From contig NZ_ANBA01000015.1 in the NCBI RefSeq assembly GCF_000341085.1, positions 62,001 through 126,000 on the forward strand: DNA of 64,000 nucleotides, read 5' to 3'. The notes under the pieces were generated by a model that saw only the letters and a program-made list of their open reading frames with translations, did not search any database and was not told where the DNA came from. Shown one piece after another: positions 1,680 to 59,836 of this stretch. Each line of letters starts with the position of its first letter. Positions within the stretch are counted from its first letter, which is position 1. The translations under genes were made by a program, and so were the position numbers. This DNA is from Nocardiopsis ganjiahuensis DSM 45031. Its GTDB lineage: Bacteria > Actinomycetota > Actinomycetes > Streptosporangiales > Streptosporangiaceae.

Positions 1680-3286
1680 GCGCCGCCCTCGCTCTCGTTC
1701 CGGTTGGTGCCCTCAGCACCGCTGCCACCTTCTGTCGTGTGCGCGTCCGCGCCGTCCAGCCCGGCGCCGGTCATGGCGGAGCCGAGCTGTTCGGGGGTGA
1801 CGCTGGTCGGGTCGGCCTCCGCGACCAGGCGGCCGCGCAGGATGACGTGGAGTGTGTCGGACATGCCGATGAGCTCGTCGAGGTCGGCGGAGATCAGCAG
1901 GACGGCCAGCCCGGCGGCGCGCGCCTCGCGCAGCTGCTCCCAGATGGCCGACTGCGCGCCCACGTCCACGCCCCGGGTGGGGTGCGCGGCGACCAGAAAG
2001 CGCGGGTCCCCGCTCATCTCACGGCCGATGATGAACTTCTGCTGGTTGCCCCCGGACAGCGCGTCGGCGATGACGTCGATGTTGGGGGTGCGCACGTCGT
2101 ACTCGGAGACGATGCGCTCGGAGTCGGCGCGGGCCCCGGCCCGGTTGATCCAGGAGCCCCTGACGCTGGGCCGGCGGGTCTGGTGGCCCAGGATCCGGTT
2201 CTCCCACAGCGGGGACTCCAGCAGCACGCCGTGCCGGTGGCGGTCCTCGGGGATGTAGCCGACCCCGGCCTCGCGGATGCGCAGCGTGGCCCAGTCGGTG
2301 ATGTCCCGGCCCTCGAGGGTGATGGTGCCGGAGGCGATCCGGCGCATGCCCATGATGGCCTCGATCAGTTCGGACTGGCCGTTGCCCTCGACGCCGGCGA
2401 TACCGACGATCTCGCCCTGGCGGATGTCCAGGGAGACGTCGTCGACGACGGGCCGGTCCTCCGGCGAGCGCACGGTGACCCCGGTCATCGACAGGACGAC
2501 GTGGTCGGTGACGGTGGACTCGCGCAGCTCGGGCACGGGCAGCTCGCCGCCCACCATGAGTGTGGCCAGCTCGCGGGCGGTGGTGGCGCGCGGGTCGGCG
2601 GTGGCCACCGTGGTGCCGCGGCGGATCACGGTGATCTCGTCGGCGACCGACAGGACCTCGTCGAGCTTGTGCGAGATGAAGATGACCGTGAGGCCCTCGC
2701 GCTTGAGCTCGCGCAGGTTGTCGAAGAGCTCGTCGACCTCCTGCGGGACCAGGACGGCGGTGGGCTCGTCCAGGATGATCGTCTCGGCGCCGCGGTAGAG
2801 GACCTTGAGGATCTCCACGCGCTGGCGGTCGCCGACGCCCAGTTCCTCCATGAGGCGGTCGGGGTCGACCCCGAGCCCGTACTGGGCGGACAGCTCCTGG
2901 ATGCGGCTCCTGGCGTTGCGGCCGATGCCGTGCTTGCGCTCGGCGCCCAGGACCACGTTCTCCAGCACGGTGAGGTTGTCGGCGAGCATGAAGTGCTGGT
3001 GCACCATGCCGATGCCGTGCCTGATGGCGTCCGAGGGCGAGTTGAAGCGTACTTCCTGGCCCCGGACCAGGATCTGGCCCTCGTCCGGCTTGTGCATGCC
3101 GTACAGGGTCTTCATCAGCGTGGACTTGCCTGCGCCGTTCTCGCCGACGATGGCGTGCACGGTACCGGGAGCCACGGTGATGTCGATGTCGTGGTTGGCC
3201 ACGACGCCGGGAAAACGTTTCGTGATCCCGTGCAGCTCAACAGCGAAGGGCTCCAAGGCCTCGTCGCCCGATGGCGTGCTGCTCAT
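1676..3286 (-). CDS. ABC transporter ATP-binding protein, double NBD (nucleoside/sugar type)
   Basis: A 536-aa ATPase made of two tandem nucleotide-binding domains, as in NupO/RbsA-type importers. The first NBD has Walker A GENGAGKST and Walker B ILDEPTAVL. The second has a degenerate Walker A (GVEGNGQSE) and signature ALSGGNQQK, the asymmetry usual for this family. The ATG at 3286 is chosen because it has an AGGAG ribosome binding site eight bases upstream; in-frame codons further upstream lack one. It energises uptake from the cytoplasmic side for the two permeases encoded downstream. It is separated from the binding-protein gene by 188 bp that contain two stem-loops. Confidence 0.93.
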   Translation of the reverse strand: MSSTPSGDEALEPFAVELHGITKRFPGVVANHDIDITVAPGTVHAIVGENGAGKSTLMKTLYGMHKPDEGQILVRGQEVRFNSPSDAIRHGIGMVHQHFMLADNLTVLENVVLGAERKHGIGRNARSRIQELSAQYGLGVDPDRLMEELGVGDRQRVEILKVLYRGAETIILDEPTAVLVPQEVDELFDNLRELKREGLTVIFISHKLDEVLSVADEITVIRRGTTVATADPRATTARELATLMVGGELPVPELRESTVTDHVVLSMTGVTVRSPEDRPVVDDVSLDIRQGEIVGIAGVEGNGQSELIEAIMGMRRIASGTITLEGRDITDWATLRIREAGVGYIPEDRHRHGVLLESPLWENRILGHQTRRPSVRGSWINRAGARADSERIVSEYDVRTPNIDVIADALSGGNQQKFIIGREMSGDPRFLVAAHPTRGVDVGAQSAIWEQLREARAAGLAVLLISADLDELIGMSDTLHVILRGRLVAEADPTSVTPEQLGSAMTGAGLDGADAHTTEGGSGAEGTNRNESEGGA

Positions 3287-3371
3287 CTTTCTCCTCGTGG
3301 AAACAGCAACGTGGCGCACGGGACCGGTGTGGTCGTGTCCGGACGCCCTCGTCGCGGAAAACGGCAACCGG

Positions 3372-3413
3372 GACGGCACCGGGAGGGGACTGCTCCCCTG
3401 CACCGGTGCCGTC
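3372..3413 (-). terminator. Large intercistronic stem-loop between binding protein and ATPase genes
   Basis: GACGGCACCGG (3372-3382) pairs perfectly with CCGGTGCCGTC (3403-3413), and inside it AGGGGA pairs with TCCCCT around a CTGC loop. It lies in the transcribed gap after the lipoprotein gene. No T-tract follows, so it is more likely an attenuator or RNA-stabilising hairpin than a full terminator. Confidence 0.6.
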
Positions 3414-3425
3414 CTGGGGCACTGT

Positions 3426-3448
3426 CACCGCGGGCTCTGCCCGCGGTG
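3426..3448 (-). terminator. Second intercistronic stem-loop
   Basis: CACCGCGGGC and GCCCGCGGTG form a perfect ten-base stem with a three-base TCT loop, closer to the lipoprotein stop than the first hairpin. On the minus strand it is met first by polymerase. It probably reduces read-through into the ATPase gene, or protects the 3' end of the binding-protein message. Confidence 0.6.
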
Positions 3449-3474
3449 GGACAACATCATGCCTCGACCAGCGC

Positions 3475-4536
3475 TTACGGCTGGGTCGGGACCTCGATCT
3501 CGCCGTCGATGATCTCCTGCTTGATGGCGTCGAGCTCTTCCTGGATCGGCGCGATGGCCTCCTCGTTCGACTGTGTGTAGTCCACACCGCCGTCGGCGAG
3601 GTCGAAGCGCTGGATGCCGGTCTGCGGCTCACCGTCGACGACGGCCTTGATCATCTCGAAGACGGAGACGTCGACCTGCTTGATGGCGGAGGTCAGCACG
3701 TACGGCTTCTGCTCGTCCTCGGCGTTCTCGTACTGGTCGCTGTCGACGCCGATGAAGGTGAAGTCGTTGTCGACGGCGGCCTGGAGGACACCGTTGCCCG
3801 AGGCGCCGGCGGCGTGGTAGATCACGTCGGCGCCGCGGTCGTACTGGGCCTGGGCGGCCTCACGGCCCTGGGCCGGGTCGCTGAAGCCGCTGAAGTCCGG
3901 CGGCTGGCTCAGGTAGTTGACCTCGACCTCGATGTCCTCGTTCACGTGCTCGACGCCCGCGGCGAAGCCGGCCTCGAACTTGTGGATCAGCGGGGTCTCG
4001 ACCCCGCCGACGAAGCCGACGTGGTCCTCCTCGGTGGTCAGCGCCGCGGCCGCACCGGCCAGGAAGGAGGCCTGCTCCTCGGCGAAGACCAGGCTGGTGA
4101 CGTTCGGGAACTCCTCCTCGTCGACCTCGGAGTCGACGATCGCGAAGTTGGTGTCGGGGTAGTCCCCGGCCACGGCCTCCATGGGCTCCTGGTAGGCGAA
4201 GCCGACGCCGATGACGACGTCGAAGCCCTCCTCGGCCATGTTGGCGAGGCGGTCCTGCTTGTCGGAGTCGGCCTCACCGTCGGCCGGCTCGAAGTCGGCC
4301 GTCTCGACGCCGAGTTCCTCGGCCGCGCGCTCCAGGCCCCGGAAGGCGGAGTCGTTGAAGGAGCGGTCGCCGCGGCCACCGACGTCGTAGGCGAGACCGA
4401 CGCGGACCTCGGAAGAGGCCTCCTCGTCGCTGCCTCCGTCGGCTCCGCCGTCTTCGGCCGCGTTGTCACACGCGGTCAGTGCCAGCACGCCCGCCGCGGC
4501 GACCGCGGCGAACTTGGCTGCGTTGCTGCGCTTCAC
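3475..4536 (-). CDS. BMP-family substrate-binding lipoprotein (nucleoside importer)
   Basis: A 353-aa secreted lipoprotein. After a short basic N-terminus and hydrophobic stretch it has the lipobox Leu-Thr-Ala-Cys, followed by an acidic Gly/Glu/Asp-rich linker. The mature part matches the Bmp/Med family (AYDVGGRGDRSFNDSAF near the start, VIYHAAGASGNGV for the ligand pocket). This family binds purine nucleosides outside the membrane and hands them to the NupOPQ-type permease. The GTG start at 4536 follows a GGGGAG ribosome binding site at good distance; upstream in-frame codons do not look translated. It is the first gene of the transporter operon, and a dre-like palindrome lies about 300 bp upstream. 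Confidence 0.92.
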   Translation of the reverse strand: MKRSNAAKFAAVAAAGVLALTACDNAAEDGGADGGSDEEASSEVRVGLAYDVGGRGDRSFNDSAFRGLERAAEELGVETADFEPADGEADSDKQDRLANMAEEGFDVVIGVGFAYQEPMEAVAGDYPDTNFAIVDSEVDEEEFPNVTSLVFAEEQASFLAGAAAALTTEEDHVGFVGGVETPLIHKFEAGFAAGVEHVNEDIEVEVNYLSQPPDFSGFSDPAQGREAAQAQYDRGADVIYHAAGASGNGVLQAAVDNDFTFIGVDSDQYENAEDEQKPYVLTSAIKQVDVSVFEMIKAVVDGEPQTGIQRFDLADGGVDYTQSNEEAIAPIQEELDAIKQEIIDGEIEVPTQP

Positions 4537-7173: not shown

Positions 7174-8207
7174 AGCTCGACCTCTTCCTGCCAGGTGCGG
7201 TGCTGCCGGGTCAGCTCGTCGGTGGTCTCCCGGAAGACGTGGGTGAACAGCTCCGAGCCGTCGGGCTCGGGGGCGGCGGCGACCCCGTCGCGGATCTCCT
7301 CGGCCCTTCTGGCGGCCTCGGCATCGACGTCGGCGAAGAACTCCTCGTCGGCGTGCCCGGCCTCGAGCATGGCGGCGCGCAGCAGGTCGATGGGGTCGCG
7401 CCGGCGCCAGCGGTCGGCGTCGGACTCGTCGCGGTAGCGGCCGGGGTCGTCGGAGGTGGAGTGGGGCTCGACGCGGTAGGTGAGGGCCTCGATGACGGTG
7501 GGGCCGCCGCCGTTGCGGGCGCGTTCGACCGCCTCGGCGGTGACCGTGTGGACGGCTCCGGCGTCGTTGCCGTCGACGAGGACGCCGGTCATGCCGTAGC
7601 CCTCGGCGCGCGCGGCGATGGAACCGCCCGCGACCTGGCGCTCGTTGGGCACCGACAGGGCCCACTGGTTGTTCTGGCAGAAGAAGATGACGGGTGCCGT
7701 GAAGACCCCGGCGAAGTTCATGGCCTCGTGTACGTCGCCCTCGGAGCTGGCGCCGTCGCCGAAGTAGGCCATGGCGACGCCGTCGTCACCGCGGAGGCGT
7801 TCGCCGAGCGCCCAGCCCACGGCGTGGGGGACGGGGCCGCCGACCACCGCGTTGATGGCGCCGAAGCGGGACTCCATGACGTCGTAGAGGCCGCCGTGCC
7901 ACAGGGCCCGGTGGGTGGCCATGTAGCCGACCATCTCGACGCCGTAGGCGAGGGCGGCGGCCATCTCACGGTAGGTGGGGAAGACGAAGTCGCGGGTGGG
8001 GTCGAGAGCGCTGGCGCTGCCGACCTGCGCGGCCTCCTGTCCCCGGACGGAGACGTAGGCGGGGAAGACGCCCTGGCGCTGGAGGGCGATGGCCTCGGTG
8101 TCCAGATCACGCGCGGTGCGCATGTCGCGGTAGAGGCCGCGGGTCAGTTCGGGTGTCAGGTGCTCCACGGTGATGGCGCCCTGACCCGTCGACTCTTGGG
8201 GTGGCAT
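7170..8207 (-). CDS. 2-oxo-acid dehydrogenase E1 component, alpha subunit
   Basis: A 345-aa ThDP-dependent E1 alpha subunit. The thiamine diphosphate motif runs from Gly-Asp-Gly (150-152) to Asn-Asn (179-180). HSTSDDPGRYR near residue 255 is the phosphorylation-loop region conserved in BCKDH/PDH E1 alpha. The ATG at 8207 has a GGAG nine bases upstream. It is the first gene of a three-gene operon (E1 alpha, E1 beta, lipoyl domain) transcribed away from the Lrp-type regulator at 8911. Branched-chain 2-oxo acids, the source of branched fatty-acid primers in actinomycetes, are the most likely substrates by context. Confidence 0.92.
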   Translation of the reverse strand: MPPQESTGQGAITVEHLTPELTRGLYRDMRTARDLDTEAIALQRQGVFPAYVSVRGQEAAQVGSASALDPTRDFVFPTYREMAAALAYGVEMVGYMATHRALWHGGLYDVMESRFGAINAVVGGPVPHAVGWALGERLRGDDGVAMAYFGDGASSEGDVHEAMNFAGVFTAPVIFFCQNNQWALSVPNERQVAGGSIAARAEGYGMTGVLVDGNDAGAVHTVTAEAVERARNGGGPTVIEALTYRVEPHSTSDDPGRYRDESDADRWRRRDPIDLLRAAMLEAGHADEEFFADVDAEAARRAEEIRDGVAAAPEPDGSELFTHVFRETTDELTRQHRTWQEEVEL

Positions 8208-54587: not shown

Positions 54588-54746
54588 CTCCTGCCGCCGC
54601 GGCGGGCCGGCCAGGCCTGCCACGGCAGAGCGCGGAACCCCCTGGGAGAAGCCGATTTCGCACTTCCCCCAACTTCCGCTAGAGTTCTTAACGCAGCGAG
54701 GGACGCGGCGCCGGGAAAACCGGAGCCGCACCGAAGCACTCGCCGC

Positions 54747-54819
54747 GCGGACGTGGCTCAGCTGGTAGAGCATCACCTTGCCAAGGTGAGGGTCGCGGGT
54801 TCGAATCCCGTCGTCCGCT
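54747..54819 (+). tRNA. tRNA-Gly (anticodon GCC), copy 1
   Basis: A 73-nt cloverleaf with acceptor GCGGACG/CGTCCGC, anticodon stem-loop CACCT-TGCCAA-GGTG reading GCC, T-arm GCGGG-TTCGAAT-CCCGT and discriminator T. Confidence 0.96.
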
Positions 54820-54890
54820 CGAGCGATTCGCATAGTGCCGCTTCAGGTGGCACAATCGGATCGGATCGGGGAGAGCATCCCGGATCACAC

Positions 54891-54963
54891 GCGGACGTGG
54901 CTCAGCTGGTAGAGCATCACCTTGCCAAGGTGAGGGTCGCGGGTTCGAATCCCGTCGTCCGCT
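54891..54963 (+). tRNA. tRNA-Gly (anticodon GCC), copy 2
   Basis: Identical to copy 1 over all 73 nt. Confidence 0.96.
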
Positions 54964-55034
54964 CGAGCGATTCGCATAGTGCCGCTTCAGGTGGCACAAT
55001 CGGATCGGATCGGGGAGAGCATCCCGGATCACAC

Positions 55035-55107
55035 GCGGACGTGGCTCAGCTGGTAGAGCATCACCTTGCCAAGGTGAGGGTCGCGGGTTCGAATCCCGTC
55101 GTCCGCT
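55035..55107 (+). tRNA. tRNA-Gly (anticodon GCC), copy 3
   Basis: Identical to copies 1 and 2 over all 73 nt. Confidence 0.96.
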
Positions 55108-55156
55108 CGGAGAAAGGCACGCGTGGGTGCCGCTCGGTTCCCCCGTGCTTCTGCAA

Positions 55157-55228
55157 GCCGGAGTGGCCGAGTGGTTGAGGCAAGGGACTGCAAATCCCTG
55201 CACACGGGTTCGATTCCCGTCTCCGGCT
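55157..55228 (+). tRNA. tRNA-Cys (anticodon GCA)
   Basis: A 72-nt cloverleaf with acceptor GCCGGAG/CTCCGGC, anticodon stem GGGA/TCCC with GCA in the loop, T-arm ACGGG-TTCGATT-CCCGT and discriminator T. Confidence 0.95.
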
Positions 55229-55251
55229 CCACGGGCACCACATTTCCATAA

Positions 55252-55325
55252 GGGCGATTAGCTCAGTTGGCTAGAGCACTACCTCGACACGGTAGGGGTC
55301 ACAGGTTCGAGTCCTGTATCGCCCA
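55252..55325 (+). tRNA. tRNA-Val (anticodon GAC), integration target
   Basis: A 74-nt cloverleaf with acceptor GGGCGAT/ATCGCCC, anticodon stem CTACC/GGTAG with loop TCGACAC, T-arm ACAGG-TTCGAGT-CCTGT. Its last 36 nt plus one base recur at 59279, marking an integrated element. Confidence 0.96.
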
Positions 55326-55326
55326 C
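55290..55326. repeat. att direct repeat, left (3' half of tRNA-Val)
   Basis: A 37-bp sequence from the anticodon stem to the tRNA end, identical to 59279-59315. Confidence 0.92.
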
Positions 55327-55332
55327 AAGCAG

Positions 55333-55360
55333 AAGGCGGGTTCCTCCGGGAGCCCGCCTT
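55333..55360 (+). terminator. Terminator downstream of tRNA-Val
   Basis: AAGGCGGG (55333-55340) pairs with CCCGCCTT (55353-55360). It lies inside the island's left end, so it was presumably brought in with the element. Confidence 0.75.
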
Positions 55361-55567
55361 CGCTGTTTCCACAACAGTGCCCTTCGAGGGTCGGCGCCAT
55401 GCCGAACAGCCGCTCCCGCTCCTTGTTCGTGAGAGCGCCCACACACCGCATCCACCGGGTCTCGGGCACCGTGGGTACGCTCTTCTCCATCTCCTCGGCA
55501 ACCATCTCGCAGATGCGCTTCACCCCCGGGAGCGTGGGCCCCAGCCCCGCAGCTGGAGACCGACAGC

Positions 55568-56491
55568 TCACCCAGCCTGCATCGCAGCCTGCTTAGCGTC
55601 CTCGCGGCGGTAGCGGCCTGGAGCGGTGCCGTGGATCCGCTTGAAGGCCTTCGCGAACGCGTACTCCGAGCTGTAGCCGACGTACCTGGCGACAGCCGAC
55701 AACGGTTCTTCGCCGCCGCGCAGTCGCCGTGCGGCCGTGACCATCCGCCACCGCGTGAGATACGCCAGTGGCGACTCGCCCACGTCGGCAGTGAACCGGC
55801 GAGCGAACGTCGCCCGGGACATGCCCGCGTGGGCGGCCAACTCCTCGACCGTCCACTGTCGGCCCGGGTGCTCGTGCATCTCGCCGAGCGTCGCGGCCAG
55901 GCCGGGATCGCGCAGTGCCGAAGCCCAGCCCGCGCCGCCCCTGTCCTGTTCCGACAGCCACGCCCGCAGGATGTACACCAGCAGGGCGTCCAGGAGCGCG
56001 GGCGCCACCGCGTCACCGCCCGGTCGGCCTTCGTCCAGCTCGGCGGTCAGCAGGTCCACGATCGCACGGAGCTGCGGATGGCGGCCCAGCTGTGCGGGCA
56101 CGTGCACGACCTCGGGAAGGCTGTCGAGCAGCGGGTGCGACCAGTCACGCTCGAACTCGTACACCCCGCACAGCAGCGCCGTCCGCATCCCGGGGCCCTC
56201 CACGATCTGCGGCTCCCCGGGGCCCGCGACCTCGGTCAGCGGCGTCTCGGGGCTGTCGGCCAGGCCGTGTCCCATATCCCCGTACAGGAACACCACGTCG
56301 CCGACCGAGAGCGGCGTCGGATCCCCCTGGCGCGGAAGGAGCCAACACGACCCCTGCAGCACCATGTGGAATCCGGCCCCGGCCAACTTCGGATACGAGC
56401 GCCCCCAGGGCGCGTGCCGCACGGTCGTCCCGAACCCGGGCCGGCCCACGCGGGTCGCGGCGATCATGTCACTCAACACGTCCATGTGCAT
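55568..56491 (-). CDS. AraC family regulator (cupin sensor domain), island gene
   Basis: A 307-aa regulator with an AraC-type cupin_6 ligand domain (residues 1-190; RPGFGTTVRHAPWGRSYPKL, VFLYGDMGHGLADSP) and a C-terminal double HTH (205-300; WTVEELAAHAGMSRATFARRF; VARYVGYSSEYAFAKAFKR). ATG 56491 follows GGAGG. It is divergent from the MFS exporter with 138 bp between, so it likely activates the exporter and oxidoreductase in response to a compound they handle. It is the left-most gene of the tRNA-Val island. Confidence 0.9.
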   Translation of the reverse strand: MHMDVLSDMIAATRVGRPGFGTTVRHAPWGRSYPKLAGAGFHMVLQGSCWLLPRQGDPTPLSVGDVVFLYGDMGHGLADSPETPLTEVAGPGEPQIVEGPGMRTALLCGVYEFERDWSHPLLDSLPEVVHVPAQLGRHPQLRAIVDLLTAELDEGRPGGDAVAPALLDALLVYILRAWLSEQDRGGAGWASALRDPGLAATLGEMHEHPGRQWTVEELAAHAGMSRATFARRFTADVGESPLAYLTRWRMVTAARRLRGGEEPLSAVARYVGYSSEYAFAKAFKRIHGTAPGRYRREDAKQAAMQAG

Positions 56492-56629
56492 ATCCTAACC
56501 TCCGGATCGGTGAGTGTTTCGGACATCCATCTGCGCCTCACGATCATTGTTGCGCTCATTTCAGCTCCGTAATGTCAGTTGGGAGCGGGCCGACCGGCCC
56601 GCACTGCGAATGCGACGGAAGGCATGACG

Positions 56630-58105
56630 ATGGGACAGCGAGCGGCAACGACTCGACAGGCGGCACCGGCAACCGGGCGCGGATGGGCGATGGGCGTGCT
56701 GCTCGCCATGCAGCTCATGGTCATCCTCGACGGCACCATCGTCACGGTGGCGCTCCCGACCATCCAGGACGACCTCGGCTTCACCGACTCGGGCCTGGCC
56801 TGGGTCGTCAATGCCTACCTCATCGCCTTCGCCGGGCTCCTGCTCCTGTCCGGGCGCCTGGGCGACCTCCTCGGCGGCAAGAGGGTGTTCATCGCCGGGC
56901 TGGCGACCTTCACCCTCGCCTCCGTCCTCGCCGGACTCGCGGTCAACCCCGCCATGCTCATTGCCGGTCGCTTCGGCCAAGGCGTCGGTGGAGCCATGGC
57001 CTCCGCAGTCATCCTCGGCATGATCGTCGCGCTCTACCCCCGACCCGGTGAACAGGCCAAGGCCATGGGCATCTACAGCTTCGTCTCCGCAGGCGGCGGC
57101 GCGATCGGCCTCATCGCAGGCGGTGTCATCACCCAGACCCTCGGCTGGGAAAGCGCGTTCCTCGTCAACGTCCCCATCGGCATCGCCACCCTCGTCCTCG
57201 CGCTCCGCTTCATCACCGGGCAGCCCGGCATCGGCTTCGACAAGGGCGCCGACCTCCTCGGGGCGGCCCTCGTCACTATCGGCCTCTCACTCGGCGTCTA
57301 CACCATCGCCCAGATCGCCGAACCCGAATCCACCACCGGACGCTCGCTCGGACTCGGCGCAATCGCCGTGGCCCTCCTCATCGGATTCCTCTGGCGCCAG
57401 ACCAGAGCCGCCACCCCGCTGCTGCCCCTGCGCATCTTCCGCGACCGCCGGCTCTCCACCGCCAACCTTGTGGTCGTCACCATCTTCGTCGCCGGTTTCG
57501 GCTTCCAGTTCCTCGGGGCCCTCTACCTCCAGCGGGTGCTCGGTCTCGACTCATTGCACACCGGCCTGGCGTTCCTCCCCGCCCCGGTGACACTCGGCAT
57601 CACCTCTCTGTTCCTGTCATCCAGGCTCACCGGCCGATTCGGCATCCGCAAGGTCCTGATGTCCGGAATGACGGCACTGGCCGCCGGACTCCTGCTCCTG
57701 AGCCGCGTTCCGGAGCAGGGGAACTACTTCGCCGACGTCATGCCTGCCCTCTTCATCATGGGCGTGGGCATGGGCCTGGCGCTCCCGGCGGCGATCATGG
57801 CCGCGATGTCCGGCGCCGCTCCCGAAGACCAGGGCCTGGCATCGGGGCTCAACAACACCGCACAGCAGGCGGGTGGCGCAATCGGTCTCGCCGTTCTCGC
57901 TACTGCCGCAGCCGCTGTCACTGCGGACCGGATCGAGTCCGGCACCGCTGCCATGACCGCCCTGCGCGACGGATACAGCCTGGCGTTCCTCATCGCGGCC
58001 GGAGTCGTGGCAGCTGGAACGGTCCTCACCGCCTTCGCCCTGCGCACCCCCGCCACACCTGAGACCGCCGCCGAAGAATCCGAACCCGCGACCGCGGCCC
58101 TCTGA
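56630..58105 (+). CDS. MFS exporter, DHA2 (14-TM, EmrB/QacA) family, island gene
   Basis: A 491-aa drug:proton antiporter-type membrane protein with about 14 hydrophobic helices. DHA2 motifs are visible: MVILDGTIVTVALPTI (motif D1) in helix 1, the loop GRLGDLLGGKRV (motif A), and motif C-like GAIGLIAGGVI in helix 5. ATG 56630 has GGAAGG at seven bases; ATG 56624 is too close to it. It probably exports toxic small molecules. The oxidoreductase follows 29 bp later on the same strand, suggesting co-transcription under the AraC protein. Confidence 0.92.
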   Translation: MGQRAATTRQAAPATGRGWAMGVLLAMQLMVILDGTIVTVALPTIQDDLGFTDSGLAWVVNAYLIAFAGLLLLSGRLGDLLGGKRVFIAGLATFTLASVLAGLAVNPAMLIAGRFGQGVGGAMASAVILGMIVALYPRPGEQAKAMGIYSFVSAGGGAIGLIAGGVITQTLGWESAFLVNVPIGIATLVLALRFITGQPGIGFDKGADLLGAALVTIGLSLGVYTIAQIAEPESTTGRSLGLGAIAVALLIGFLWRQTRAATPLLPLRIFRDRRLSTANLVVVTIFVAGFGFQFLGALYLQRVLGLDSLHTGLAFLPAPVTLGITSLFLSSRLTGRFGIRKVLMSGMTALAAGLLLLSRVPEQGNYFADVMPALFIMGVGMGLALPAAIMAAMSGAAPEDQGLASGLNNTAQQAGGAIGLAVLATAAAAVTADRIESGTAAMTALRDGYSLAFLIAAGVVAAGTVLTAFALRTPATPETAAEESEPATAAL

Positions 58106-58134
58106 CCCCTGCCACCGGACAAGGAAACAAGGCA

Positions 58135-59259
58135 ATGAACGAGAAGATCGCGATCGGCGTCATCGGAGCGCACGCCCAGCGAGGTTGGGCGAGGGCGGTG
58201 CACCTTGCGGCCCTGCGGGATTCACATGATTTCGACATCGTGGCCGTGGCGTCCACCGATGCGACACAAGCCGCCGAAGCGGCGGAGGCGTGGGGCGCCG
58301 AGCGTTCCTACGGGGACGCACACGCGCTGCTGGCCGACCCTGCGGTGGAGGCGGTGCTCATCGCCGTCCAGTTGCCGAAGCGCGACGACCTGGTCGCAGC
58401 GGCGATCGCCGCCGGCAAGCACGTGTACGTCGAATGGCCGCTGGCGCTGGACGCCGCGACCGCCGAGCGCTACCGCGACCTGGCCGCCGCAAAGGGCGTC
58501 CAGCACGCGGTCGGCCTGCAGACCCGCCACCACCCGGCGATCCGGTACCTGCACGAGCTCATCGCCCAAGGCGCTGTCGGCGACGTGCTCTCGGCCTCGC
58601 TCCACTATTCGATCGGCGCGGCCGAGGAATGGTCCGAGCGGTACGCCGACCTGTTCGACGCGACCAAGGGCGTCAACCACCTCGCGGTGGTCGGCGGGCA
58701 CGCGATGGACCAGTTCGCGCACGCGCTCGGCCGTCTCACAGCGCTGTCGGGCCGGCTCGCGACCCGCATCCCCGAAGTGACGATCACGGAGACCGGTGAG
58801 CGGTTGAAGGTCACGTCGCCCGACCAGATCCTGGTCCACGGCGTCCTGGAATCGGGCGCGCCTGCTTCGGTCCACATCATGACCGGCGGTCCCGCCGGCG
58901 CCGGGTACCGCATCGAGGTGCAGGGCCGCACCGGCCGTCTGGTCCTGGAATCGGCGGACGACTCGCTGGTCGCTCCCCGCTACCAACTGCGGAAGACGAC
59001 CACGGGCGACACCGCGGTGCTCCCGGTACCGGAGCGCTTCTGGACCAAGGGCTCCGACAACCCTTCGCCCGCCGCGAATGCGGGGGAGGTCTACCGGGGA
59101 TTCGCCGCCGCGATCCGGACCGGCGCGGCGCACGAACCGAACTTCGACACCGCCATCGCCGTGCACCGCACGCAGGACGCCATCCGCCGCTCGAACGAAA
59201 GCGGCGCGAGCGAACTCGTCCAGCCAGGAGAACCAGAGGAAGACAACGGTTCACTCTGA
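58135..59259 (+). CDS. Gfo/Idh/MocA family oxidoreductase, island gene
   Basis: A 374-aa NAD(P)-dependent dehydrogenase. The Rossmann N-domain starts IAIGVIGAHAQRGWARAVHL and has the EKP-like HVYVEWPLAL (the usual Lys is Trp here). The C-terminal Gfo/Idh domain (about 125-370) includes NHLAVVGGHAMDQFAHAL with the catalytic His region. The altered EWP motif resembles Gal80p-like members, so catalytic activity is uncertain. ATG 58135 follows AAGGAAACAAGG. The gene ends 19 bp before the right att repeat, making it the last gene of the island. Confidence 0.88.
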   Translation: MNEKIAIGVIGAHAQRGWARAVHLAALRDSHDFDIVAVASTDATQAAEAAEAWGAERSYGDAHALLADPAVEAVLIAVQLPKRDDLVAAAIAAGKHVYVEWPLALDAATAERYRDLAAAKGVQHAVGLQTRHHPAIRYLHELIAQGAVGDVLSASLHYSIGAAEEWSERYADLFDATKGVNHLAVVGGHAMDQFAHALGRLTALSGRLATRIPEVTITETGERLKVTSPDQILVHGVLESGAPASVHIMTGGPAGAGYRIEVQGRTGRLVLESADDSLVAPRYQLRKTTTGDTAVLPVPERFWTKGSDNPSPAANAGEVYRGFAAAIRTGAAHEPNFDTAIAVHRTQDAIRRSNESGASELVQPGEPEEDNGSL

Positions 59260-59278
59260 TCTGCGCGGCAGGGGTCAG

Positions 59279-59315
59279 CGGTAGGGGTCACAGGTTCGAG
59301 TCCTGTATCGCCCAC
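59279..59315. repeat. att direct repeat, right (displaced tRNA-Val 3' end)
   Basis: Identical over 37 bp to 55290-55326. It contains the T-arm and acceptor 3' strand but no 5' half, so it is not a functional tRNA. Confidence 0.92.
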
Positions 59316-59344
59316 TTCATTACGGAACGACCCTGCTGGGGACC

Positions 59345-59500
59345 TTGAGCCTCCTCGGTGCGCGGGCCCCGGCCCAGGATCATCCGGGACAGCTGCTGGA
59401 TGATGTTGGGCCAGGCCGCCACCCCGATGAGCGTGAGGCGCAGCAGGTCCGGATGGTCGCGGTGGAACTCGTGGACGCGCCGGACGCAGTCGGCCGGGTC
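59345..59500 (-). pseudogene. Possible TetR-family C-terminal fragment
   Basis: The minus-strand frame encodes VRRVHEFHRDHPDLLRLTL followed by GVAAWPNIIQQLSRMI, which resembles the ligand-domain end of TetR regulators. No HTH part is present. It abuts the aldo-keto reductase fragment on the opposite strand just outside the island. The assignment is from pattern only. Confidence 0.4.
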
Positions 59501-59515: not shown

Positions 59516-59836
59516 CGTTTCGCCGAGGGGCGGGCCGAGGCCAACGCGCGCCTCCTGACCCCCCTCACGGAGGCCGCAGAGGCGCACGGTGCCACACCCG
59601 GCCAGGTCGCGCTCGCTTGGGTGCGCCAGCGAGCCGACGTCTGGGGGCTGCCGGTCGTGCCGATTCCCGGTACCAAGAAGGTTCACCGCCTGGAGGAGAA
59701 CGCGGCGTCCGTCGACGTGTGTCCGACCGGTCCCGAACTCGACGCCCTGGACGCGATCGCCGCCGCTGTGGAGGGTGACCGCTACCCGGACATGACCCTT
59801 ACCTCCGCGGGGCCTCGCGCCCAGGCACTGATGTAG
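59516..59836 (+). pseudogene. Aldo/keto reductase C-terminal fragment
   Basis: About 106 codons match the C-terminal third of aldo-keto reductases: EAHGATPGQVALAWVRQ, VVPIPGTKKVHRLEENA (the NADP-binding loop) and a terminal LDALDAIA helix. The catalytic Tyr and Lys regions are missing and no upstream frame supplies them. A deletion has removed the 5' part, possibly together with the TetR neighbour, near the insertion point of the island. The remaining reading frame is still open. Confidence 0.75.

Follow-up and report, generated by a model that had tools for sequence, protein, structure and literature searches.

A tRNA-Val locus of Nocardiopsis ganjiahuensis that very probably holds a foreign three-gene cassette in the stranded remnant of an integrative element

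Results

Gene content and repeats at the tRNA-Val locus

We analysed a stretch of 64,000 nucleotides from the genome of Nocardiopsis ganjiahuensis DSM 45031 (positions 62001-126000 of contig C15), hereafter the window. It comprises an array of tRNA genes (54747-55326), of which tRNA-Val(GAC) is the last in the row (55252-55326, + strand, identified with ARAGORN). The last 37 bases of this gene (55290-55326, +), which form the left, attL-side repeat, are found again at 59279-59315 (+), 3,989 bp downstream. The original prediction of an exact repeat of the tRNA 3' half 3.99 kb downstream is thus borne out. An intact tRNA gene accompanied by a displaced 3' fragment in direct orientation is the arrangement of a tRNA-targeted island, with tRNA-Val(GAC) as the integration target. 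As the whole 7.35-Mb assembly (54 contigs) has no more than two full genes for tRNA-Val(GAC) and two orphan 3' copies, namely the right repeat of the island and one copy on contig C14, chance is not an issue for this repeat. Further upstream in the array, a 144-bp unit containing a tRNA-Gly(GCC) gene occurs twice in exact tandem repetition (54746-55033) and is followed by one more tRNA-Gly gene.

Three cargo genes, all open reading frames of normal length, lie between the repeats. They code for an AraC-family regulator with a Cupin_6 domain (55568-56491, -; Pfam and comparison with Glycomyces algeriensis), a DHA2-type MFS exporter (56624-58105, +; Pfam MFS_1) and a Gfo/Idh/MocA oxidoreductase (58135-59259, +; Pfam and the same comparison). 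The exporter, for which an alternative upstream TTG start is possible at 56579, scores slightly below the TIGR00711 cut-off. These genes had been taken for the entire content of the island; all three are there and look intact, but a relic of an integrase gene was overlooked. At 55335-55553 on the minus strand, tblastn revealed a C-terminal stub of a gene for a tyrosine integrase, which we call int1; 15 bp lie between the stub and the end of the AraC gene. The stub corresponds to residues 335-407 of the intact protein of genome G021, with 59% identity over 73 aligned residues (E = 9e-24, a value obtained with a small database). The first four fifths of that protein have no counterpart in the window. 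Relative to the intact protein, the active-site motifs LGH and VYE have become LGP and ICE. By the roles of these motifs in the family, the stub has lost both the active-site His and the catalytic Tyr. The view that the island is devoid of an integrase therefore holds for an intact enzyme only. Since the interval contains nothing more of an integrase gene than this 73-residue C-terminal stub without the catalytic Tyr, we consider the locus to be the remnant of a tRNA-targeted island rather than an intact one.

The gene from which the stub derives is present in full beside the tRNA in G021 and G022, on the opposite strand and with its 3' end towards the tRNA, and an intact int1 is also found at the second tRNA-Val gene of G020. 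The G021 and G022 integrases both match phrog_1 (integrase). The G022 protein is above the Pfam cut-off for PF00589, and the G021 protein is missed by Pfam at the default threshold; its PHROGs match together with the G022 homologue settles its identity as an integrase.

Origin of the cargo genes

Protein identity to Glycomyces algeriensis is 90.5% for the regulator and 86.5% for the oxidoreductase. These values are well above those of RecA (74.7%) and TrpA (55.1%) for the same pair of genomes, and the two genes are thus of foreign origin, having arrived by horizontal transfer. In G. algeriensis, the two are neighbours without an intervening MFS gene (L136 4983-7086), which indicates gain or loss of the exporter within the cassette. 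Pairs of MFS and Gfo/Idh genes occur in other genera of the family, with 56-64% protein identity, and no close copy of the three-gene cassette was found among the members of the genus that were searched. The dN/dS ratios of the two genes relative to G. algeriensis, 0.15 and 0.21, are rough estimates at this GC content and are silent on the time since arrival; they suggest that both genes have been kept by selection over the split from G. algeriensis. Compared with the Glycomyces protein, the oxidoreductase of the window has 12 additional residues at its C-terminus; the Glycomyces stop codon corresponds to positions 59224-59226.

A truncated right repeat

To characterize the right end, we aligned each of 15 orphan tRNA-Val copies, including that of the window, with the tRNA of the genome in which it lies. 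All 14 other orphan copies examined in the genus retain the core of the anticodon loop (xTxGACA or a near variant), and those that have not diverged have 43-49 bp in common with the tRNA. The right repeat of the window begins immediately 3' of the anticodon loop, and we regard it as a truncated remnant of attR, on the basis of the direct repeat and of this alignment. Most of the other orphan copies are preceded by one of two recognizable element arms. Neither arm matched the 250 bp upstream of the right repeat of the window above shuffled controls, and the arm of the orphan copy in G030 is likewise unrecognizable. From the comparison of arms, the right junction, between the ancestral end of the Gfo/Idh gene and the repeat (59227-59278), is where the right arm of the element is missing. 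Crossovers in tRNA genes are known to occur in the anticodon loop, in the T loop or at the junction of the T and acceptor stems (PMC4383910). At this tRNA-Val gene, the reach of the identity suggests that the anticodon loop is the crossover site, and loss of both loop and arm would have inactivated the right site.

Empty sites and the right flank

We compared the tRNA-Val locus with 37 other genomes of the genus using blastn. Similarity mostly ends at or soon after the 3' end of the tRNA, and the site is thus variable. The sequence found here after the second repeat directly adjoins the tRNA in G005, G015 and G008, and this is the very empty site, with 55326 joined to 59316, that had been anticipated. 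None of the 37 other genomes has the cassette at this site, and it is therefore not fixed together with both repeats in all relatives, the situation that would have spoken against an island. The empty site is seen in more distant members of the genus, not in the nearest relatives. The same right flank follows a second repeat copy in G029, behind a different insert of about 1.8 kb.

The sequence directly after the tRNA in the three empty-site genomes corresponds to a remnant of the chromosomal tRNA-Val terminator in the window (59316-59356, +). The match extends over only about 40 bp, after which the flank of the window is broken. From 59316, this flank thus opens with a broken terminator, followed, outside the repeats, by a C-terminal fragment of an aldo/keto reductase gene (59525-59836, +, start approximate; Pfam PF00248), whose match is confined to profile positions 218-288 of 291. 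In this genome, 13.6 kb separate the tRNA from a BCCT transporter region downstream; in G037, the distance is 0.5 kb.

An integration hotspot in the genus

A pattern search identified orphan tRNA-Val 3' copies in eleven genomes including that of N. ganjiahuensis, and the tRNA-Val locus is an integration hotspot across the genus. Among nine att-bounded islands examined at tRNA-Val, four have an integrase gene that is open over its length (two islands in G020, one each in G023 and G039). The island at the second tRNA-Val gene of G020 has int1 and is 35.3 kb long. The second G020 island and those of G023 and G039 harbour int2, the gene of an unrelated 449-aa tyrosine integrase that adjoins the right att site (L122:12702-14051, L123 about 2971-4293 and L124 about 2911-4233) and is 84% identical between genomes. 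Two unrelated integrase families therefore target the same tRNA. The other five islands are without an intact integrase: that of the window and those of G001, G008, G029 and G030. Molybdopterin oxidoreductase is found in the G001 island, a GH65 hydrolase in the G008 island, and S9 peptidases and an MFS gene in the G030 island. Behind the second tRNA-Val gene of G020 is a tandem array (L120-L122, G020:C1:3445121-3493245), in which the 35.3-kb island with intact int1 is followed by a 12.7-kb island with int2 and by a further att copy with a broken int1.

Discussion

The exact repeat, the empty sites in relatives, the int1 stub, the truncated and armless right repeat and the lack of a full-length int1 or int2 gene in the genome together make it very likely that the island is the decayed, stranded remnant of a tRNA-Val-targeted integrative element holding a foreign three-gene cassette. 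An element with a tyrosine integrase would have landed at tRNA-Val with int1 adjoining attL, its 3' end towards the tRNA. On insertion, the tRNA would have been made whole again, with a displaced 3' copy at the opposite boundary of the element. Of int1, only about the last 73 conserved codons would have survived the deletions that followed, in an order that we can only propose; these would also have taken the left arm, any backbone and, at the other end, the right arm together with the 5' part of the attR core. The remaining AraC, MFS and Gfo/Idh cassette would now be a fixed chromosomal gene block that is probably immobile.

Such a history leaves room for two views of how the cassette reached the locus. 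It could have travelled on the element, as we are inclined to believe by a modest preference, or ordinary recombination could have joined it to a remnant that had already decayed, the repeats then marking the older element only. The latter scenario is a serious contender, if somewhat short of an even chance. On its left, the cassette is 15 bp from the int1 stub, and on its right it borders the truncated repeat, element sequence being absent from both junctions. In the genus, we found no int1 element carrying the cassette, and nothing connects these genes with such an element elsewhere. However, cargo is usually found next to the att end away from the integrase, and the same picture would result from two deletions, one internal and one at the right end. 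As for a plain partial duplication of the tRNA, with no site-specific integration at all, the exact tRNA-Gly tandem repeats just upstream indicate that duplication does occur in this array. Nevertheless, relatives have empty sites, the left end bears the int1 stub, and equivalent copies elsewhere in the genus are accompanied by element arms; we therefore discarded that explanation, which has next to nothing left to recommend it.

The original prediction saw a minimal accessory island, possibly moved in trans by the recombinase of another element. An accessory island bounded by tRNA-derived att-type repeats is indeed what we find. If its attL and attR were still usable, the integrase of another element could excise or carry it, in cis or in trans, in the manner of a cis-mobilizable element (CIME). 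The genus offers a favourable setting, with two unrelated integrase families at tRNA-Val, tandem arrays in G020 and recurrent islands without an integrase. However, the island has an int1 stub of its own, its right repeat is cut off at the anticodon loop and has no arm, and the genome has no full-length integrase of either family. In this genome, the best match to int1 is a C-terminal fragment, 68% identical, in a frame of 138 aa, and nothing near int2 was found, with 28-29% identity at best over long stretches. Continued mobility thus seems improbable. It is tempting to speculate more broadly that tRNA-Val 3' ends serve as docking sites, where cargo islands with a dead integrase continue to be swapped, either in trans or through recombination of att cores, and where even the truncated 37-bp core is a substrate, but we consider this scenario slightly more improbable still.

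Three known systems come closest to this locus. Like the tRNA-gene-targeted islands with tyrosine integrases collected by Islander (PMC4383910), the locus has an intact tRNA at one end and a displaced 3' fragment at the other, with an integrase gene beside the tRNA and accessory cargo between. In contrast with those islands, only a C-terminal stub of the integrase is left, and the displaced fragment is itself truncated. As Islander's own filter requires an integrase gene (PMC4383910), it would miss this island. CIMEs are likewise decayed elements, which have lost their integration and transfer genes but retain flanking repeats of the target gene (PMC5704250). The island has lost both kinds of genes, but the definition of a CIME includes keeping attL and attR (PMC5704250), and here the right copy is devoid of the anticodon loop and the arm. 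For this reason, we do not file the island as a CIME; no accreted partner element was found beside it. With actinomycete integrative and conjugative elements (AICEs; PMC3218068), it shares a tyrosine integrase beside the att site, insertion at a tRNA 3' end and an actinomycete host. Unlike AICEs, which have replication and FtsK-like transfer genes between their att sites, it contains only the AraC, MFS and Gfo/Idh genes and the int1 stub, with no replication or transfer gene left.

Decay and stranding are an ordinary fate for tRNA islands, and this locus is ordinary in kind, if well resolved in detail. It illustrates the way in which decay can turn an integrating element into a block of genes fixed in the chromosome, and a single tRNA site provides a genus-wide series in which the integrase is intact, broken, a stub or absent. 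It also serves as a warning that islands called integrase-free might conceal a short integrase relic. It gives no pointer to a new mobility mechanism.

The second orphan copy of the genome, on contig C14, is 49 bp long and far from any tRNA (L039 7995-8031, minus strand; 7645-7986). On one side is a right arm almost identical to that of the G020 element, and on the other an int1 stub 96% identical to the left end of the window island. A DUF2637 gene adjoins related att copies both on C14 and in G020. This copy looks like a junction between tandem elements or a displaced attP. Nearby, at L039 8956-11438, repetitive frames (GSPPLARGR / LTPARAGKT) resemble putative CRISPR repeat arrays.
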